Shown piece by piece: positions 30,822 to 59,092 of a DNA stretch of 64,000 nucleotides. The position numbers and the translations under genes were made by a program. Within the stretch, counting starts at the first letter, position 1. Each line of letters opens with the position of its first letter. The notes beneath the pieces were generated by a model that was given only the letters and a program-made list of their open reading frames with translations, was not told the origin of the DNA and ran no database searches. The DNA is from Fimbriiglobus ruber (GTDB taxonomy: Bacteria; Planctomycetota; Planctomycetia; Gemmatales; Gemmataceae): assembly GCF_002197845.1 (NCBI RefSeq), contig NZ_NIDE01000010.1:1-64000 (forward strand), written 5' to 3'.

Positions 30822-30977
30822 TCATCTCCCCGACGTCCCCTCGTACACGGCCGCGGGCGTCTGGTAGTCCAACGACGGATGCAATCGCTGCCCGTTGTCG
30901 AACGCGAAGTACGATCGTAACCCACTCGTCAGTTCCGGGACCGACTCGTACCCCCGCAGGTACACGTCCTCGTACTT
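30822..30977 (-). pseudogene. IS3-family transposase (OrfB) C-terminal piece, first copy
   Basis: Reads KYEDVYLRGYESVPELTSGL and then RSYFAFDNGQRLHPSLDYQT to a TGA at 30824-30822: the end of an IS3-family integrase-type transposase after the catalytic Glu. The upstream portion of the same gene lies at 33477-33764 (RLWRSLK), separated by the recombinase element. Joined at AAG the two halves read ...LWRSLK-YEDVYL..., as expected for an uninterrupted gene. Confidence 0.85.
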
Positions 30978-31018
30978 GGACGAGGCATCATTTCCCTCCA
31001 CTCTGCGAATGTGTTGTC
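30978..31018 (-). repeat. Right terminal arm of the serine-recombinase element
   Basis: On the minus strand GACAAC starts exactly 41 nt before the crossover dinucleotide AA (30977-30976). The same 41-nt spacing is seen at the other end (33436-33476) and in the second copy (57881-57921). It also encodes the last residues of the recombinase. Confidence 0.7.
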
Positions 31019-33168
31019 GGGTGGTCAGATTGCGTTCGGAGTGCTGGTTTGGTCAACTCCACCGGTGGCGTACGCCGCCCGTGGTGCTTGCGCTCGAACG
31101 CGCGGAGTCGGCGGAGCCGACGTATCTCCGTCGCGCTCGCCCACACGATCCACCGACCATTCTCGCCCCGCAGTTGCCGCGCGTGCAACCATCCCGACCA
31201 ACGCCAGCGATGCACCACGATCGGCTTCACGCCCAGACGGTCGGCCAATGTGGGTAACCAGTACTCGTCCGACCCCGGCAAATCGCTCGCGTCCCGGACC
31301 CCGGCCGGGACACCCGACCGACCGAACCTCGCCCACAACTGGCGTACGCGATGACCCGTAAACGTCTCGCCGCGGGCCACTCGATATCCTTCGTCGTTCA
31401 ACACGCCCGCAATCTGATCGGCTGTCAACCCCTCGCCGCGGAGAGTGACCACCCGCTGTCGCAATTCGGCGTACCGTTCGACCGACGTGTCTTTCCGGAG
31501 CCCCTGCCGGACCTCGTGGCGGGTTGTCGTGCCGCCACGCCAGTGAATCGCAACATCGACCCGTTCCGACTCGCCATGTCGTGCCAACTCCACACCCTCG
31601 ATCAACAGCCGCACGATCGCCCGTCGATCGCCTCCCGTCGTTGTCGGGCTTCGCCACAATCCCGGCAGATCGGCCGCCACGGCCACAATCCGCCCCCGGT
31701 CGGAATCATTCAGGTGCCGCGGTTGCTCCACCTGGAAGCGGGCGTAATCCTCCGTCAGTCGTTGGTGTTCGGCCAACTTTTGCTCCCACTGCCGTTCCCG
31801 TTCGCGGGCCACCAGGCGATTGGCGGGATCGACCGCCTCGTACGGCCGCCGCGCCCGATCCGCCTCGTAACCGGCCCGTTCGACCCGCTGCTTCCAGTGC
31901 GTGTGCAACCGCTCCCGGTCCTCCTCCAACCGCTCGGCCGCCCGGAAGCTCAACTCCCGTGACGCGGGTTCGACGGCCCGGAGGACCAGCGATTCGACCA
32001 GGCGGTCCGGGTCGCCAGCGACCACGCTCTGGCAGCGTGCCCCACCGTATTCCTGGAACTCCCGGTCGCAGGCGTAGCGCGGGTTCGCCGACGCCCGCGC
32101 GCTCCTCGCGGCCATTGGTTGGCCACAACGCCCGCACCGGACGATTCCGTTGAGCCGCGTCGGCGCCCGACCCGTTGCCTTCTTCGATCCCGGTCCGCGG
32201 TCATTGGCCGTGAGCCGGCGACCGTTCTCTTCGTACTGTTCCCACGAGATGTCCGCCGGCACCTTGTCCTTGAGCCAGCAGACCCAGTCCTCGGGCGGGG
32301 CAACCCGGCGGCCCGACTTCGGCTTCCCCGCGATCCGTCGCTGGGGGTCGAAGGGGCACCGTCCGAAGGCGTACGCTCCTGCGGAGATCGGGTGCCGCAG
32401 CATCCCGTAGAGGGTGCTGCGGCGTGGCCGCTGCCCCACCAACCGGCCTTTGCCCGGCCCCTGGTACACCCGCAGGCCGAGTGGGATGTTGTTCGCGACG
32501 AAATACGCGTGGGTCTTCGTGAGCGATCCGAGTTCGGCGAACGTGGCGAACACCAACGAGACCACCGAACGCACCTGCTCGTCGGGGTCCCGCGCGATGC
32601 CGTCGTCGGGTGACCGAACGTACCCGATCGGTACGCAGGTAAACAGTTCCCCCCGCCGCGCCTTGTTCAACTTACCCTGGTGCATCCGCGCCTTCAGGAC
32701 GTGAAGTTCGGCCTCGGACATCATACCTCGCAGTCCGAGCAGGAGGCGATCCGAGGGCTCAGTCGGGTCGTACACCCCGTCGGCGTCGGCAATCAGAACT
32801 TGGAAGAGGGCGCACAATTCCAGCAACGGATGCCAGTCCCGGCACGACCGGGACCGTCGGCTCATCTCGCGGCCGAACACGATCCCCACGTGCTCGAGTG
32901 AGACCTCGGCGAGCAACCGCTGAAATCCCGGGCGGTTATCGACCGAGGTGCCGCTGATGCCCTGGTCGTCGTCGATCACCAGCACGCGCTCGTCCGCCCA
33001 CCCCAGCGTGACCGCCCGCTGACGCAGTTGGTACTGGAGGTCGGCCGACTCGCGGTTGCTGACGACCTGATGGGAGGTCGATTGGCGAATGGAAACGACG
33101 GCCAGCCGGTCACGGTGACGGGGCCGAATCTTGTGCCCGAACGGGATGGTGGGATCACTGGGATTCAT
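30988..33168 (-). CDS. Large serine recombinase of the IS3-targeting element
   Basis: This is an intact 726-aa protein. The N-terminal resolvase domain has the nucleophile region LAVVSIRQSTSHQV, then QYQLRQRAVTLGW, DDDQGISG and REMSRRSRSCRDW. The recombinase domain has RSTLYGMLRHPISAGAY, and the zinc ribbon has IVRCGRCGQPM with a second Cys pair in YACDREF and ARCQSV. A long coiled-coil-rich segment (about 410-520) and a C-terminal HTH region (LTADQIAGVLNDEGY, ending WIVWASATEIRRLRRLRAF) follow. The last residues (HPTTHSQSGGK) are encoded within the element's terminal arm. It should cut at a 2-bp core through a Ser-DNA link. The start overlaps the helper ORF. Intact, so the element may be mobile. 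Confidence 0.9.
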   Translation of the reverse strand: MNPSDPTIPFGHKIRPRHRDRLAVVSIRQSTSHQVVSNRESADLQYQLRQRAVTLGWADERVLVIDDDQGISGTSVDNRPGFQRLLAEVSLEHVGIVFGREMSRRSRSCRDWHPLLELCALFQVLIADADGVYDPTEPSDRLLLGLRGMMSEAELHVLKARMHQGKLNKARRGELFTCVPIGYVRSPDDGIARDPDEQVRSVVSLVFATFAELGSLTKTHAYFVANNIPLGLRVYQGPGKGRLVGQRPRRSTLYGMLRHPISAGAYAFGRCPFDPQRRIAGKPKSGRRVAPPEDWVCWLKDKVPADISWEQYEENGRRLTANDRGPGSKKATGRAPTRLNGIVRCGRCGQPMAARSARASANPRYACDREFQEYGGARCQSVVAGDPDRLVESLVLRAVEPASRELSFRAAERLEEDRERLHTHWKQRVERAGYEADRARRPYEAVDPANRLVARERERQWEQKLAEHQRLTEDYARFQVEQPRHLNDSDRGRIVAVAADLPGLWRSPTTTGGDRRAIVRLLIEGVELARHGESERVDVAIHWRGGTTTRHEVRQGLRKDTSVERYAELRQRVVTLRGEGLTADQIAGVLNDEGYRVARGETFTGHRVRQLWARFGRSGVPAGVRDASDLPGSDEYWLPTLADRLGVKPIVVHRWRWSGWLHARQLRGENGRWIVWASATEIRRLRRLRAFERKHHGRRTPPVELTKPALRTQSDHPTTHSQSGGK

Positions 33169-33333
33169 GTGCCCCCTCCGTCGATGGGTCGGGGACGGCG
33201 AGTCGCTCGGCGAGCATGCGGCTGAGCCGACGGAGGAGTTCTTCCTGCTGAGGGGTCGGCAGATCCTGCCACCGAGGCTGCGTCGGTGGAGAGGGATTCA
33301 GGCGCGGGGGGGAGTTGGGGGGCTATGGGACAT
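33155..33333 (-). pseudogene. Helper ORF before the recombinase, one-base slip
   Basis: From ATG 33333, with GGAGGA 7 nt upstream, the frame reads MSHSPPTPPR and stops. If one base is restored in the C run (33307-33322) it continues RLNPSPPTQPRWQDLPTPQQ and EELLRRLSRMLAERLAV, ending 14 nt inside the recombinase gene. Short ORFs with a WQDLP-Q-ELLRRL pattern commonly precede recombinases of this type (recalled, not checked). They may help expression or synapsis. A longer frame from 33413 that ends in ATGA at the recombinase start is less protein-like. Confidence 0.5.
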
Positions 33334-33435
33334 GGTGCGGCTCCTCCGTTGCGAGCGTGGTAGTCCTGATACCATCGGGCGACTTCGAGCAAAGCCCAGG
33401 GGCAGACGATCACCGGAGGTGTTGTATTCGCCCCG

Positions 33436-33476
33436 ACAACGCCTTCATCGAGAGGCGGTGTTTGTCGGCTCTTTTT
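33436..33476 (+). repeat. Left terminal arm of the serine-recombinase element
   Basis: On the plus strand GACAAC starts 41 nt before the crossover dinucleotide TT (33477-33478). It mirrors the right arm at 30978-31018. In plus orientation it reads PDNAFIER, resembling the conserved transposase motif at the target. Confidence 0.7.
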
Positions 33477-33764
33477 TCAGGCTCCGCCACAGGCGTTCGA
33501 CAAACACATTATCCAGACACCGCCCGCGACCATCCATGCTGACCGACACCCCCGCCCGCTCCACCCGGTCGATCCACCCCCCGGCCGTGAATTGGACACC
33601 CTGATCGGTGTTGAACACCTCCGGTGTTCCCCGACCCAGAGCCTCGTCCAACATGTCCTGGCAGAACGACCCGTCGAGCGTGTTCGACAACCGCCAGGCG
33701 ACCACATACCGGCTGAACCAATCGATCGTCGCCGCCAGGTACATGAACCCGGACGGCAGCGTGG
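33477..33764 (-). pseudogene. IS3-family transposase (OrfB) central piece, first copy
   Basis: Contains LPSGFMYLAATIDWFSRYVV (after the first catalytic Asp), FNTDQGVQFTAGGWIDRVER (second Asp) and GRCLDNVFVERLWRSLK (catalytic Glu). It is cut at its 5' side by the left end of an IS21 element and at its 3' side by the recombinase element. The N-terminal part and OrfA are not found beyond the IS21 copy, so a deletion or rearrangement accompanied that insertion. Confidence 0.85.
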
Positions 33765-34312
33765 TGTCATTGAGCGCCCAAACCCAGCCAGTTCTGAGCG
33801 CCTGCAAACCCAGCCACTTTGAGGGGGCGTTGGCGGGGTGGTTTACTACCTGGATCGCCCGATTCCAGGAGTGCAACCGTGTCCCACCAGCTCACAGTGG
33901 CGATGAGCGAATCGATTCTCACACTCCATCAACGGGGTTGGTCGCAGCGTCGCATTGCCCACGAATTGGGCATCGACCGCGAGATCGTCGCCCGACATCT
34001 TCGACTCGCTGCCGCCGAGCCAAACCCCGCCACCGCGGGCACCGGGCCGCAGGCGATTCCGGCCGAGTCAAACCCCGCCACGGCGCTCACCGGGTCGCAC
34101 GCCCTCTTGCCGGAGTCGGCACCGGCCCGTTCCGCGCCCGACACACCCGGCCGGCAGGTCAGTGACTGTGAGCCGTACCGCGACACCATTCGCGCCCAGT
34201 TCGACCTGGGGCTGAGCATTCAACGCATTTTTCAGGATCTGGTCACGGAGTATGGGTTCGCCGGCAGCTACCACAGCGTTCGCCGGTTCGCCAACACGCT
34301 CGGCGTCAAACA

Positions 34313-34320: not shown

Positions 34321-36223
34321 GTAACTTCTCAATAACCCCGCGGGCGTCGGCATCGCGCGCGGGTGCCCCGCCGAACAGGAAGTTCGGTGGCGTCGAGAGC
34401 TTGAATAGAAGTCTATATCGTTGCGGAACCGGCCGCTCTCTGGCGGACCAACTCCGATAAAGGAAGTAACTCTCCCGCCTTCAGGATTCGATCCTGAAGG
34501 TAGGACGTAAAGCGAACTCCCAGCTTCTTGCACGTCGACTTCAAACTCAAAAACGTATCCCGGCAACGCTTGCCCAACTCGCCACGCGTGCCGGCACTGA
34601 TCTTCCGCTTCGTCGCCCAGTCCCGAAAATCACGCTCGGCCGTGTTGGTGTGCAGCGGCAGGTCCGGACGATCCAGAACCCGTAACAAGTCCGCTTTCTT
34701 GCCCGCCATACGCTGCAACGCCGCGTTCAACTCCGGCCAGATGGTCGTGCGGCCGACGATGGCATCGAAACGCGCTCGCAGCAACTCGGCCTGGCTCGGC
34801 GTCGGCGCCAAACGATACGCCTTCAAGTCGGCGTACAGTTGCCAGACCGCCGTCAACACCTCTTCCATCGCTTGACATTGCTCACGGCCACACGGCGTCA
34901 ACTTGGCCAGATTGCGTTCCTGGTGAATCCAGCACAAGCCATGAACGAACAGGGCATAAATCGCCGAGCCATCGCTGACGAGGCCCAAGTTCGGCGATAG
35001 GCCGTGAGCAATCGCGCTGCCCAGCAACGCCGCCTCCGTCATCGTTTGACGATGCTTCGCGTTGTCGATTCCCAGGCCATCCAAATGCTGATTCCAGGCC
35101 GACACATCCGCGAACGTCCGTGTCACGAACGGACGCTCCCCCACGTCGCCGGTCGACACCTCGGCTTGCAACAACGGCCAGATTTTGGCAGGCAACCCCT
35201 GTCGCGTCAGGTAGGCCCAGGCATGCTCGTTCAGCACATAATCGATCCGACCGCAACGCAGCACATCCAGGAATTTGCTCCGCTCTTTCGTGTCGCTGCT
35301 GTGGAAGGACGTGAAGAATTCATTGCAAATGCACAGACACGAACCGTAACGTCCCTGGTGGGGAGCCCCCGAATCGTCCACGTTCAGGCAGGTGAAAACC
35401 TGCAAGGCCGTCGGCAACAAGGCGTCCTTCTCTGCGTGAAACGCCGCGTGATTCTCGGTCAACATGTTGTTGACTTGGCCCGCGGAAATGTCGACGCCGT
35501 AATCCCGCAATTCTTCGAGAAGGCGACTCTGGGGAACGTGGGCCGCGTAATGCTGTTGCAACACGAAACCAAGCAATCCGGGACCGAAATGCCCGCGAAT
35601 TCCCGCCGGCAGTTCGCCACGAATCCACTCCCCCGTCGGCGCCTGCCAGGTTTCCAACCAATACCGCGTGTTGTGTGTTTTGATCACCAGATCCTGCACG
35701 ACGAACGCATCGCGACGCAACAACTTCGCGTCGGGCGGCAACGGTTTCGGCGTGACCGGAACCTCGGCGTGAATCGGCAGATCGTGGGTCTTCGAACGCT
35801 TCTGCGAACCGGGCCTCTTGCCATCGGGCAATGGAGGAGTGAAGGGCTTGCTTAACTTGCTGGGCTTGCTGTTGGACGCGGGTTTCTTCGGACCTCCCTT
35901 GAGTTGTGTGATCTCTCCCGTGAGTTGCGTAAGTTCGGTTTCGAGATCCGCAATGCGTTGGGAGTACTCTTCGATCACCTTCAGCAAGAGAAGCACGAGA
36001 GGGGTTCTGTCGTCGTCGCGGATGCCCGCGATGACTTCTGGCCATGACGCCGCCGCGGGTGTTGCCACCTCCCGGCCGGAGTCGTTGCCGTCAGTACTCG
36101 CGGAAAGGTTCATGCGGCCAACATAAGAAACCCCCCTTCGATCAGCTGCGCCACGGACCCGGAATTTCTAAACGCAAGCACCCCCTGCTCGGCGACCGTC
36201 GCAGGAAGTTATTGAGAAGTTAC
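34321..36223 (-). mobile_element. Intact IS66-family element inside istA
   Basis: A 1,903-bp element with perfect 16-bp terminal inverted repeats (GTAACTTCTCAATAAC at 34321, complement at 36208-36223) and an 8-bp target duplication. It contains a single full transposase on the minus strand and no visible TnpA/TnpB helpers. Undamaged, hence the youngest layer in this nest. Confidence 0.92.
34413..36113 (-). CDS. IS66-type transposase
   Basis: This 566-aa transposase has an N-terminal coiled coil (RIADLETELTQLTGEITQL) and a Lys/Pro linker. Its DDE core has first Asp in CLNVDDSGAPHQG, second Asp in LVSDGSAIYALFVHGLCWIH and Glu in HTNTAERDFRDWATKRKIS. The frame is unbroken from ATG 36113. It belongs to the single-ORF IS66 branch, since the element has no tnpA or tnpB. 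It should mobilise 34321-36223. Confidence 0.88.
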   Translation of the reverse strand: MNLSASTDGNDSGREVATPAAASWPEVIAGIRDDDRTPLVLLLLKVIEEYSQRIADLETELTQLTGEITQLKGGPKKPASNSKPSKLSKPFTPPLPDGKRPGSQKRSKTHDLPIHAEVPVTPKPLPPDAKLLRRDAFVVQDLVIKTHNTRYWLETWQAPTGEWIRGELPAGIRGHFGPGLLGFVLQQHYAAHVPQSRLLEELRDYGVDISAGQVNNMLTENHAAFHAEKDALLPTALQVFTCLNVDDSGAPHQGRYGSCLCICNEFFTSFHSSDTKERSKFLDVLRCGRIDYVLNEHAWAYLTRQGLPAKIWPLLQAEVSTGDVGERPFVTRTFADVSAWNQHLDGLGIDNAKHRQTMTEAALLGSAIAHGLSPNLGLVSDGSAIYALFVHGLCWIHQERNLAKLTPCGREQCQAMEEVLTAVWQLYADLKAYRLAPTPSQAELLRARFDAIVGRTTIWPELNAALQRMAGKKADLLRVLDRPDLPLHTNTAERDFRDWATKRKISAGTRGELGKRCRDTFLSLKSTCKKLGVRFTSYLQDRILKAGELLPLSELVRQRAAGSATI

Positions 36224-57724: not shown

Positions 57725-57880
57725 TTATGCGTTGGCCGTGGTTTGAGTTTCAAACAGGTGTGGGGTGAGGTAGCCGATGGAGGAATGCTTCCGCTCGAAC
57801 CGGTAGTACCGCACGAACTCGGCGATGGTTGTCCGAGCCGCCGCGACCGTGTCGTATTCGGTCATTTCGAGTTCCCGCTT
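57725..57880 (-). pseudogene. IS3-family transposase (OrfB) C-terminal piece, second copy
   Basis: Reads FKRELEMTEYDTVAAARTTI then AEFVRYYRFERKHSSIGYLT to a TAA at 57727-57725: the end of an IS3-type OrfB of a different subgroup from the first copy. The gene is interrupted at the same Lys codon by a second recombinase element (57881 onward). Its upstream part is not present in the window. Confidence 0.8.
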
Positions 57881-57921
57881 GAACGAGGCATCAGCGACCT
57901 CCACTCGGCGAACGCGTTGTT
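57881..57921 (-). repeat. Terminal arm of the second recombinase element
   Basis: AACAAC on the minus strand starts 41 nt before the crossover AA (57880-57879), the same spacing as in the first copy. The final GATGCCTCGT-CAAG is shared by both loci. Confidence 0.7.
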
Positions 57922-58237
57922 GAGCCCTTCGGCACCACTCGTTTTGCCGGGCGCGTTAACTCCACCGGAGGAGTTCGCCGGCCGCGGTACTTGATCTCGA
58001 ATGCCCGGAGCCGGCGAAGCCGTTTCACTTCGCCCGGGTTGGCCCATACGATCCACCGCCCGTTCGGACCCCGTAATTGTCGGGCGTGAACCCATTCCGA
58101 CCACCGCCACCGGTGAACGATGATCGGCTCGATCCCCAGATGCTCCGCCCATTCCGAGAGCCACCACTCGTCAAGCCCCGGCAGATCACTCACGTCCCGC
58201 ACACCCGGGGGAACGCCCGTCTGTCCGAACCGGGCTA
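57891..58237 (-). pseudogene. Serine recombinase C-terminal fragment, second element
   Basis: Homologous to the end of the recombinase at 30988-33168: ARFGQTGVPPGVRDVSDLPG, IEPIIVHRWRWSEWVHARQL, GRWIVWANPGEVKRLRRLRA and RRTPPVELTRP, ending STTRSPSGGR against HPTTHSQSGGK in the first. Upstream it is cut at a TA (58236-58237) by an IS630-type element. Only about 115 codons remain, so it is inactive. Confidence 0.85.
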
Positions 58238-59092
58238 GTGTCCCTGCTACGAAGTCGTGCAACAAATTCGGGTCAGCGGTTATATTGAGGATAGACCGCC
58301 CTTGTCGGAGGCATCCTCATGCGTGGTCGCAACCCCCGTTCGCTGACAATCTCGGCAGTGGATAAGCCGATCCTGGAGTTCGTCGCCCACAGTCGCCATT
58401 TGGCGTGGTTCCAGGTGCCGCATGCCCGTATCGTTCTGGCTGTTGCCGCCGGCGAGCGTGTGAGCGATCGGGCCAACCGCCGGGAGTGCGACCGGACCAC
58501 AATCTGGCGTGTCTGCCGACGCTACGAACACGGTGGCGTGGAGGAACTCCTGCGAGACGACGCACGCCAGGGACATCCGCTGGAGATCTCCCCCCCTTCA
58601 GCGTGCTCAGATCGTCGAACTTGCCTGCCGGGAACCCGTCGCCAAGGGATTGCACATTACCCACTGGTCCCGCGCGGACCTGGCTCGCCAAGCCATCCTG
58701 GACGGGATCGTTGAAACCATCAGCCCGTCCATGGTCCGCCGCATCCTGCAACAGGTGAATCTCCAACCGCACCGCACGCGCTACTGGCGAACAGCCCGTT
58801 TGGATGAGCGGTTCCAGGAACGAGCCGAGAAGGTGCTGTGGTGCTACGGCAACGCCGAGCGATTGGCCCGCGAAGACCTCTGGGTGGTCTGCACCGACGA
58901 GGTTCCCAATCTCCAGGTGTTGGAGCGGGAGCCGCTCCGTAGAGCCCGACCCGACCACATCGAGCAACACGAGTTCGAGTACACTCGGCACGGGACAGTC
59001 AATTTGCTGTTGTTTTTGGCGATCCACACGGGCCAGATGGACCTGACGGTCGTGGCGGCCAACAACGCGACACTGAGGTTCCCCAAGTTTGG
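58238..59092 (+). pseudogene. IS630-type transposase, frameshifted and truncated
   Basis: The coding part starts near 58319. The N-terminal frame carries the HTH (RTTIWRVCRRYEHGGVEELL). After a slip in the C run near 58590 the second frame reads LHITHWSRADLARQAI, ISPSMVRRILQQVNLQPHRT, VVCTDEVPNLQVLE (first Asp) and HGTVNLLLFLAIHTGQ. It ends at the left end of an IS3 element, before the second Asp and Glu region. The left IS boundary lies at a TA in the recombinase gene, the usual IS630/Tc1 target. Confidence 0.75.

Follow-up and report, generated by a model that had tools for sequence, protein, structure and literature searches.

Within the window, as we call the whole 64,000-nucleotide stretch of Fimbriiglobus ruber DNA that was analysed, a transposase gene of the IS3 type is split by a short segment that encodes a large serine recombinase (LSR). 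This raises the question of whether the segment landed there by chance or whether transposase genes are its proper target. The sequence-only reading had proposed that it looks like a pared-down selfish element for which the genes of other transposons serve as safe landing sites. A tiny element of this kind, with little beyond one recombinase and lodged in transposase genes, would be a parasite of parasites.

On the minus strand, one piece of the IS3 OrfB gene ends in CLDNVFVERLWRSL followed by AA, and YEDVYLRGYESVPEL begins after the other AA. When the flanks are joined they read CLDNVFVERLWRSL[K]YEDVYLRGYESV, and the core AA supplies positions one and two of the Lys codon. This Lys stands seven residues past a Glu that we take to be the catalytic Glu of the DDE triad, and is presumably the conserved Lys/Arg. 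The 5' part of the target, through the catalytic Glu, lies at 33478..33813 (minus strand) and has apparently lost its N-terminus already, while the 3' part, from YEDVYLRGYESV to the stop, lies at 30822..30975 (minus strand). The joined gene matches PF13683 (rve_3) across the junction with 41.0 bits, whereas the 5' half alone scores 20.3 bits, below the Pfam cut-off. Seven uninterrupted copies of the gene are found elsewhere in the genome, with 86-87% protein identity. When 450 nt about the junction are aligned, five of these copies are gapless (400-401 identities) and the other two need a single gap. These results bear out the proposal that an IS3 OrfB is interrupted past its catalytic Glu, and they supply the empty sites that the proposal called for. 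At 33760-33900 the N-terminal part of the IS3 gene appears by eye to be replaced by IS21-like sequence, so the target looks truncated; an IS66 transposase (34413-36113, PF03050) is located close to this truncated 5' side.

The core AA/TT is at 33476-33477 and 30976-30977 of the plus strand, as read from the sequence, and the AA that had been assigned to both junctions is present at each. Such a shared dinucleotide is what a 2-bp crossover would leave. In the gapless comparisons with empty sites, made for this IS3 insertion and for one ISAs1 insertion elsewhere in the genome, the two junctions share the 2-bp core and there is no other target duplication. Because the core is counted once, the insert, at 30977..33476 on the minus strand, is 2,500 bp long. 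Its removal restores the gene, as had been claimed, but the claimed length of 2,499 bp is one base short, and removing 2,499 bp would leave a frameshift.

The element carries only two ORFs, the recombinase and a helper, as had been noted, and they occupy nearly all of its 2,500 bp; there is no relaxase or phage gene among them. The LSR (30988..33168, minus strand; 726 aa) contains Resolvase, Recombinase and zinc-ribbon domains (PF00239, 71.3 bits; PF07508, 32.1 bits; PF13408, 27.3 bits), all above the Pfam cut-offs, with the catalytic domain at residues 24-174. The small ORF (33165..33413, minus strand; 82 aa) overlaps the LSR start by 4 bp, ATGA. It had no match in NCBIfam (E 0.1) and only weak matches in Pfam, all below the cut-off, and by eye a resembling small ORF occupies the equivalent place in relatives. 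We would guess that it is a directionality factor. A promoter scan found 0. From the junctions and an inverted repeat, the 5' end (33437..33477, minus strand), with core AA, is assigned to the left half of attP, and the 3' end (30976..31021, minus strand), which closes with GGAAATGATGCCTCGTCC-AA, to the right half. The arms of the subterminal repeat, at 33432-33458 and 30995-31021, are 27 nt long and 74% complementary.

The position of the insertion, which splits the transposase at or beside the catalytic Glu, would also suit a device that benefits the host, retained for inactivating insertion sequences at the catalytic codon and not selfish at all. There is a precedent of sorts in the group II intron RmInt1, which has been proposed to limit its host IS (PMC4238363). 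However, many uninterrupted IS copies persist in the genome, for example the seven of the window's IS3 type, and both the copy number and the carriage on plasmids described below fit self-spread. We regard a host-beneficial device as unlikely.

The IS3 Lys codon is not unique to this insertion. A second element of the same clade has left a 3' remnant in the window at 57894..58241 (minus strand; LSR residues 611-726, 67% identical), followed by the 3' part of another IS3 OrfB (57725..57880, minus strand; rve_3, 29.9 bits), which starts at the same Lys codon with the core AA at 57879-57880. The same codon is the junction on contig C6 of this genome, where, as at 57.9 kb, only the right junction is available, and at locus L080 of another genome, where both sides are. 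The IS3-clade copies (67-77% identical) thus have the Lys codon and the AA core in common, and at L031 (79% identical) the fit is seen on the left side only. The recurrence of one codon in three other clade members makes chance unlikely, and we reject a coincidental single insertion; the fixed codon proposed from the window alone is confirmed. L080, with an LSR 77% identical, is on a 3 kb MAG contig labelled Actinomycetes, which may be a mis-binned planctomycete contig.

When the LSR was used as a query, 38 matches were obtained in the 12.4-Mb genome. All 21 copies with readable junctions (three of these junctions one-sided) are in transposase genes at a catalytic-motif codon: the IS3 Lys, the ISAs1 Glu or the IS701-like Glu. 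The 21 copies are of three types (15, 3 and 3) and leave out the remnants C17:356k and C20:441k and the distant match C9:133k. The ISAs1-type element, whose LSR is 47% identical to that of the window, has both junctions in 12 copies, while C7:444k has only the left one, its right end being missing though the contig continues; the copies at C7:93k and C11:194k are at the same ISAs1 site. Its ends read ATYGA/GAACCCCCAGCC and, where present, GGCCAATCGA/RAAY (the slash marks the junction), and in ISAs1-like genes the junction falls on the codon for Glu in HWGIE(N) or in a variant of that motif. The second type (LSR 45% identical; L012, L014 and C9:356k, with a left end common to L012 and L014) is found in three different transposases, at SVE/DCFRQAK, ALE/TTFRDLK and IE/HLFRVAK. 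The third is the window's own clade, represented by the window element, the 57.9 kb remnant and the C6 copy, all at the IS3 Lys codon.

The ISAs1 copies bear on how the element multiplies. Few insertions might have taken place, after which the host IS, moving with the element on board and a transposase provided in trans, produced the further copies. Five ISAs1 hosts do form one close group (C7:316k, C8:220k, C14:1246k, C20:259k and C14:1296k), and four of these differ by 1-4 bases over ~1,000 bp of 5' flank. Yet six ISAs1-type copies with 0 mismatches over 2,521 bp are in different ISAs1 genes, which argues that the element itself moves. Some pairs of host genes that carry identical elements match over only ~18-22 bp beside the core; these ISAs1 genes are clearly different and have only ~20 bp at the site in common. 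Flank halves are also mixed between ISAs1 hosts, and other recombinase clades are in unrelated IS families. The identical elements in differing hosts rule out composite transposition with the IS as the sole cause of spread, and we consider the broader account distinctly unlikely. The C14:93k copy has an empty relative with a gapless alignment (504/529 nt).

At C8:88k the left flank comes from one host type and the right flank from another; mixed flanks of this kind point to later exchange between copies. Flank halves from two hosts were observed at C8:88k, C4:473k (L061, L077), L083, L090, L099 and L143, suggesting recombination between element copies. Flanks were scored as mismatched, partly by eye, at C8:88k, L083, L090, L099, L143 and L031.

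A contig scan confirmed 237 relatives, and the analysis continued with the best 80; among the taxa in their record titles are Planctomycetota, Alphaproteobacteria, Acidobacteria and Chloroflexi. A mobile-element gene was matched in the flanks of 63 of the 80 (on both sides in 45, on one side in 18, on none in 17), and in 43 both flanks are of the same family and strand. The 80 include several near-copies (R. altiplani, Mesorhizobium), and the query proteins of the target search came from 33 of the 80 loci, which makes the matches of these 33 in part circular. The other 47 loci, from which no query was taken, yielded 30 matches, 28 of them at most 10 residues from the junction. Over all 80 loci the gene is cut within this distance of the junction residue in 61 (28/47 among the non-query loci), the two of the 63 matches that lie farther away being L102 and L158.

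Classified by the first matched side, the targets are IstB (41), IS4 (6), ISAs1 (4), IS5 (3), group II intron reverse transcriptase (RT; 3) and IS3 (2), with single loci for an rve transposase, IS630, IstA and an IS1634-like gene. The ISAs1 class includes L099, where the left ISAs1 neighbour is uncut and the cut right half is IS630; the IS630 locus, L102, is not cut at the site; and the IS1634 label was given by eye, Pfam having no match for that half. The left side of L083 reads as IS4 by eye and was not counted. L096, L097 and L098, which like L083 are among the loci without a counted target, are in a DUF1257-like gene that is not mobile (19.3 bits, below the cut-off), at the site DNYNGRW(GD). 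At L096 the element end appears to restore the lost 3' end, leaving the host gene whole, unlike the IS insertions.

Junctions were called with a codon-phase rule, without which wrong frames were chosen. The automatic left ends are wrong for at least L086, L087, L142, L149 and L157, and none were given for L080 and L094; the junctions of L080, L086, L087 and L094 were set by hand. Twenty target proteins (17 joined, 3 halves) were compared with Pfam, and 19 match a mobile-element model at E 0.1 or better; the L159 half had no such model at this threshold. In 14 of the 17 joined proteins the model extends across the junction, with high scores for IstB_IS21 (203.5 bits) and RVT_1 (138.1 bits), among others. 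No Pfam model crosses the junction in L012, L085 and L087, and the matches of L014 (15.7 bits), L087 (18.0), L012 (25.2) and L085 (31.1) are below the Pfam cut-off.

One part of the control for these counts was taken from the same loci. Fragments cut at most 8 residues from the junction residue occur at 96 locus sides in the 67,520 bases of the junction windows, versus 6 places in the remaining ~681 kb, one of which (L137) is probably that element's own other junction. No target match came from eleven further control loci of 2.3-4.0 kb each, whose LSR matches are distant (24-33% identical); one of them, L046, may be a fragment of a true relative. A relaxed LSR that lands anywhere is ruled out by this control. 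The expectation that other copies would not have unrelated flanks was upheld within the IS3 clade, whose copies share the site; it did not extend to the distant relatives, whose flanks differ but are mostly mobile-element genes cut at a residue of their own. It is very improbable indeed that the element is what remains, fixed or decaying, of the integrase of an ordinary prophage or conjugative element that landed in IS genes by chance: LSRs are typical integrases of such elements (PMC10083194, PMC5704250), and the solved structure nearest to this one by sequence is integrase YokA, but the 2.5 kb hold two ORFs only, identical elements are multicopy, the same target logic is found in relatives of several phyla, and the phage collection gave no match covering 80% of the query (12 at 23-28% identity among the matches listed).

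Relatives at E 1e-30 or better were present in 472 plasmid records, mostly rhizobial, 286 of them typed conjugative. Thirteen plasmid loci were examined (12 of 24 spread matches listed and one top match, H3), and eight fit the pattern. L207 is in IstB (right side), L208 in an IS701-like gene (both sides, at Glu), and L209 in a group II RT, where both sides end at the residue also used in L153. For L210 and L211 the right side is IstA, with a cut that lies a few residues at most from that of L138, and L217 and L218 are in IS66, the joined L218 protein scoring 109.5 bits in Pfam. L212 is also in IstB, cut at a different residue ~105 residues before the usual one, and istB may therefore have a second landing site. 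The misses are L213-L216, which had no junction in a mobile-element gene, and L219, where the nearby istA is uncut. In the A. vitis plasmid pAt, the annotated IS21 istA is followed by a recombinase in the expected place of istB. The deeper lineage of L138, L210, L211 and L216 has ORFs annotated as HTH-type or DUF5372 upstream of the recombinase.

In many relatives the two element ends are arranged as a dyad (attP) about the core, GGCATC-ATGA-N10-core-N10-NCAG-RCTGCC, and the attP model GGCATCATGA-N10-core-N10-NCAGRCTGCC fits many mapped ends. In the majority of mapped targets the core occupies positions one and two of the codon for a conserved residue, GA for Glu/Asp or AA for Lys; L085 and the RT group are outside this rule. 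The core letters are unequal between the two sides of L087, and L110 and L149 look alike in this respect by eye. In the information content of 28 distinct istB sites, the second codon position (1.10 bits) exceeds the first (0.73) and the wobble position (0.49), which is what a site that follows the encoded motif should show; a few left halves in the underlying table (L142, L143, L149, L157) were picked wrongly.

In a quick tree of 69 recombinases, with the labels of 12 rows set by hand, the target label changes 23 times, versus a mean of 45.8 after shuffling and a value as low in 0 of 200 shuffles. The ISAs1 recombinases form one clade (98), the IstB ones a single group of 31 rows that includes one unmatched member, and the RT rows cluster; L081 is on a very long branch, and its position is meaningless. 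The recombinase clades track the target gene, and specificity is a property of each clade and is not peculiar to IS3. In serine integrases the core letters set the orientation of insertion. Orientation flips repeatedly inside the IstB group, and L103 (core GA, forward) and L125 (core TC, reverse), whose recombinases are 93% identical, are inserted in opposite orientations. While TC is necessary at a reversed insert in a GA site, a difference in orientation between such close enzymes is not.

Our preferred reading, which we hold to be very probable, is that of an autonomous site-specific mobile element, in which each LSR clade would target the enzyme motif of one kind of mobile element. The element would consist of one LSR, one helper ORF and two attP half-sites. 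It may be excised as a circle; the LSR would cut the circle (attP) and the transposase gene (attB) at the 2-bp core and join both, leaving no duplication beyond the core. Each clade would recognise the DNA that encodes a conserved enzyme motif of one mobile-element kind. Insertion would disrupt the target copy, and the element would gain a repeated, dispensable landing site with which it could spread on chromosomes and plasmids. The support, all of it drawn from sequence, lies in exact junctions, empty sites, independent identical insertions, the match of clade to target and core-linked orientation. Invariant codons would be favoured as targets because the target cannot easily escape by mutation. 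The original idea of a minimal element that lands safely in other transposons' genes is hence supported and widened, though "selfish" is a word that the data suggest and do not record.

There is perhaps an even chance that these elements belong to a widespread class of hyperparasites, with integrases that read the codons of indispensable residues in other mobile elements' enzymes (the DDE Glu and Lys+7, IstB, IstA, IS66, the group II intron reverse transcriptase). Escape would kill the target, clades would radiate by switching target family, and the core dinucleotide would act as an orientation switch. Of 25 plasmid rows listed, 23 are annotated only as "recombinase family protein", and, if our reading is right, many such annotations may belong to transposon parasites. 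Parasites of this sort could naturally restrain IS activity and drive rearrangement. They would also offer a set of serine integrases provided by nature, each with its pair of attP and attB, whose specificity and orientation are readable from sequence.

The machinery is known, whereas for a family specialised on the enzyme motifs of other mobile elements we found no description in the open literature, among the matches listed, as judged by title and the start of the abstract; excerpts of PMC9203015, PMC3091744 and PMC5756416 contain no description of such elements. In the excerpted survey of LSRs (PMC10083194), targets are enriched for magnesium chelatase and competence genes, and transposases are not named as targets. 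The excerpted review of IMEs (PMC5704250) describes elements with a serine integrase that sit in dispensable genes, and others with a tyrosine integrase that sit in ICE oriT. A classical DDE IS is marked by terminal inverted repeats together with a target duplication of several bp; the element does not fit that description, for its junctions share the 2-bp core only. The IS607 serine transposases also mobilise a small element with a serine recombinase, but these enzymes are reported to have an inverted domain order and minimal target specificity (PMC4058570). The window LSR is not a short serine recombinase with an N-terminal DNA-binding domain; unlike IS607, it has 726 aa, an N-terminal catalytic domain and strict sites.

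The use of other transposons as a safe harbour has a parallel in IS4321/IS5075 (IS1111 family), which insert in Tn21-type terminal repeats (PMC8269217) with a transposase of another type, DEDD (PMC11187229); they target terminal repeats, whereas the elements described here target coding motifs. RmInt1, in the transposase gene of ISRm2011-2 (IS630), is likewise a parasite within a transposase gene (PMC4238363), but it is a retroelement that splices out of RNA, while here DNA integration breaks the gene; some relatives of the window element target group II introns themselves. In the multi-targeting LSR clade (TndX-like, DUF4368; PMC10083194), one LSR type also uses several target genes, and an example has a TT core and T/A-rich ends. 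The window LSR differs in that it has no DUF4368 match at E 0.001 and in its specific motifs with a fixed codon. The closest likeness in machinery is to serine integrases of the phiC31, Bxb1 and YokA type, which have the same Resolvase, Recombinase and zinc-ribbon domains, a 2-bp core, no larger target duplication and sites within conserved coding sequence. Unlike those of serine-integrase elements, the contents of the window element comprise two genes without phage or conjugative cargo, and it is multicopy in one genome; unlike those of the phiC31, Bxb1 and YokA type, the landing sites here are mostly enzyme motifs of other mobile elements.
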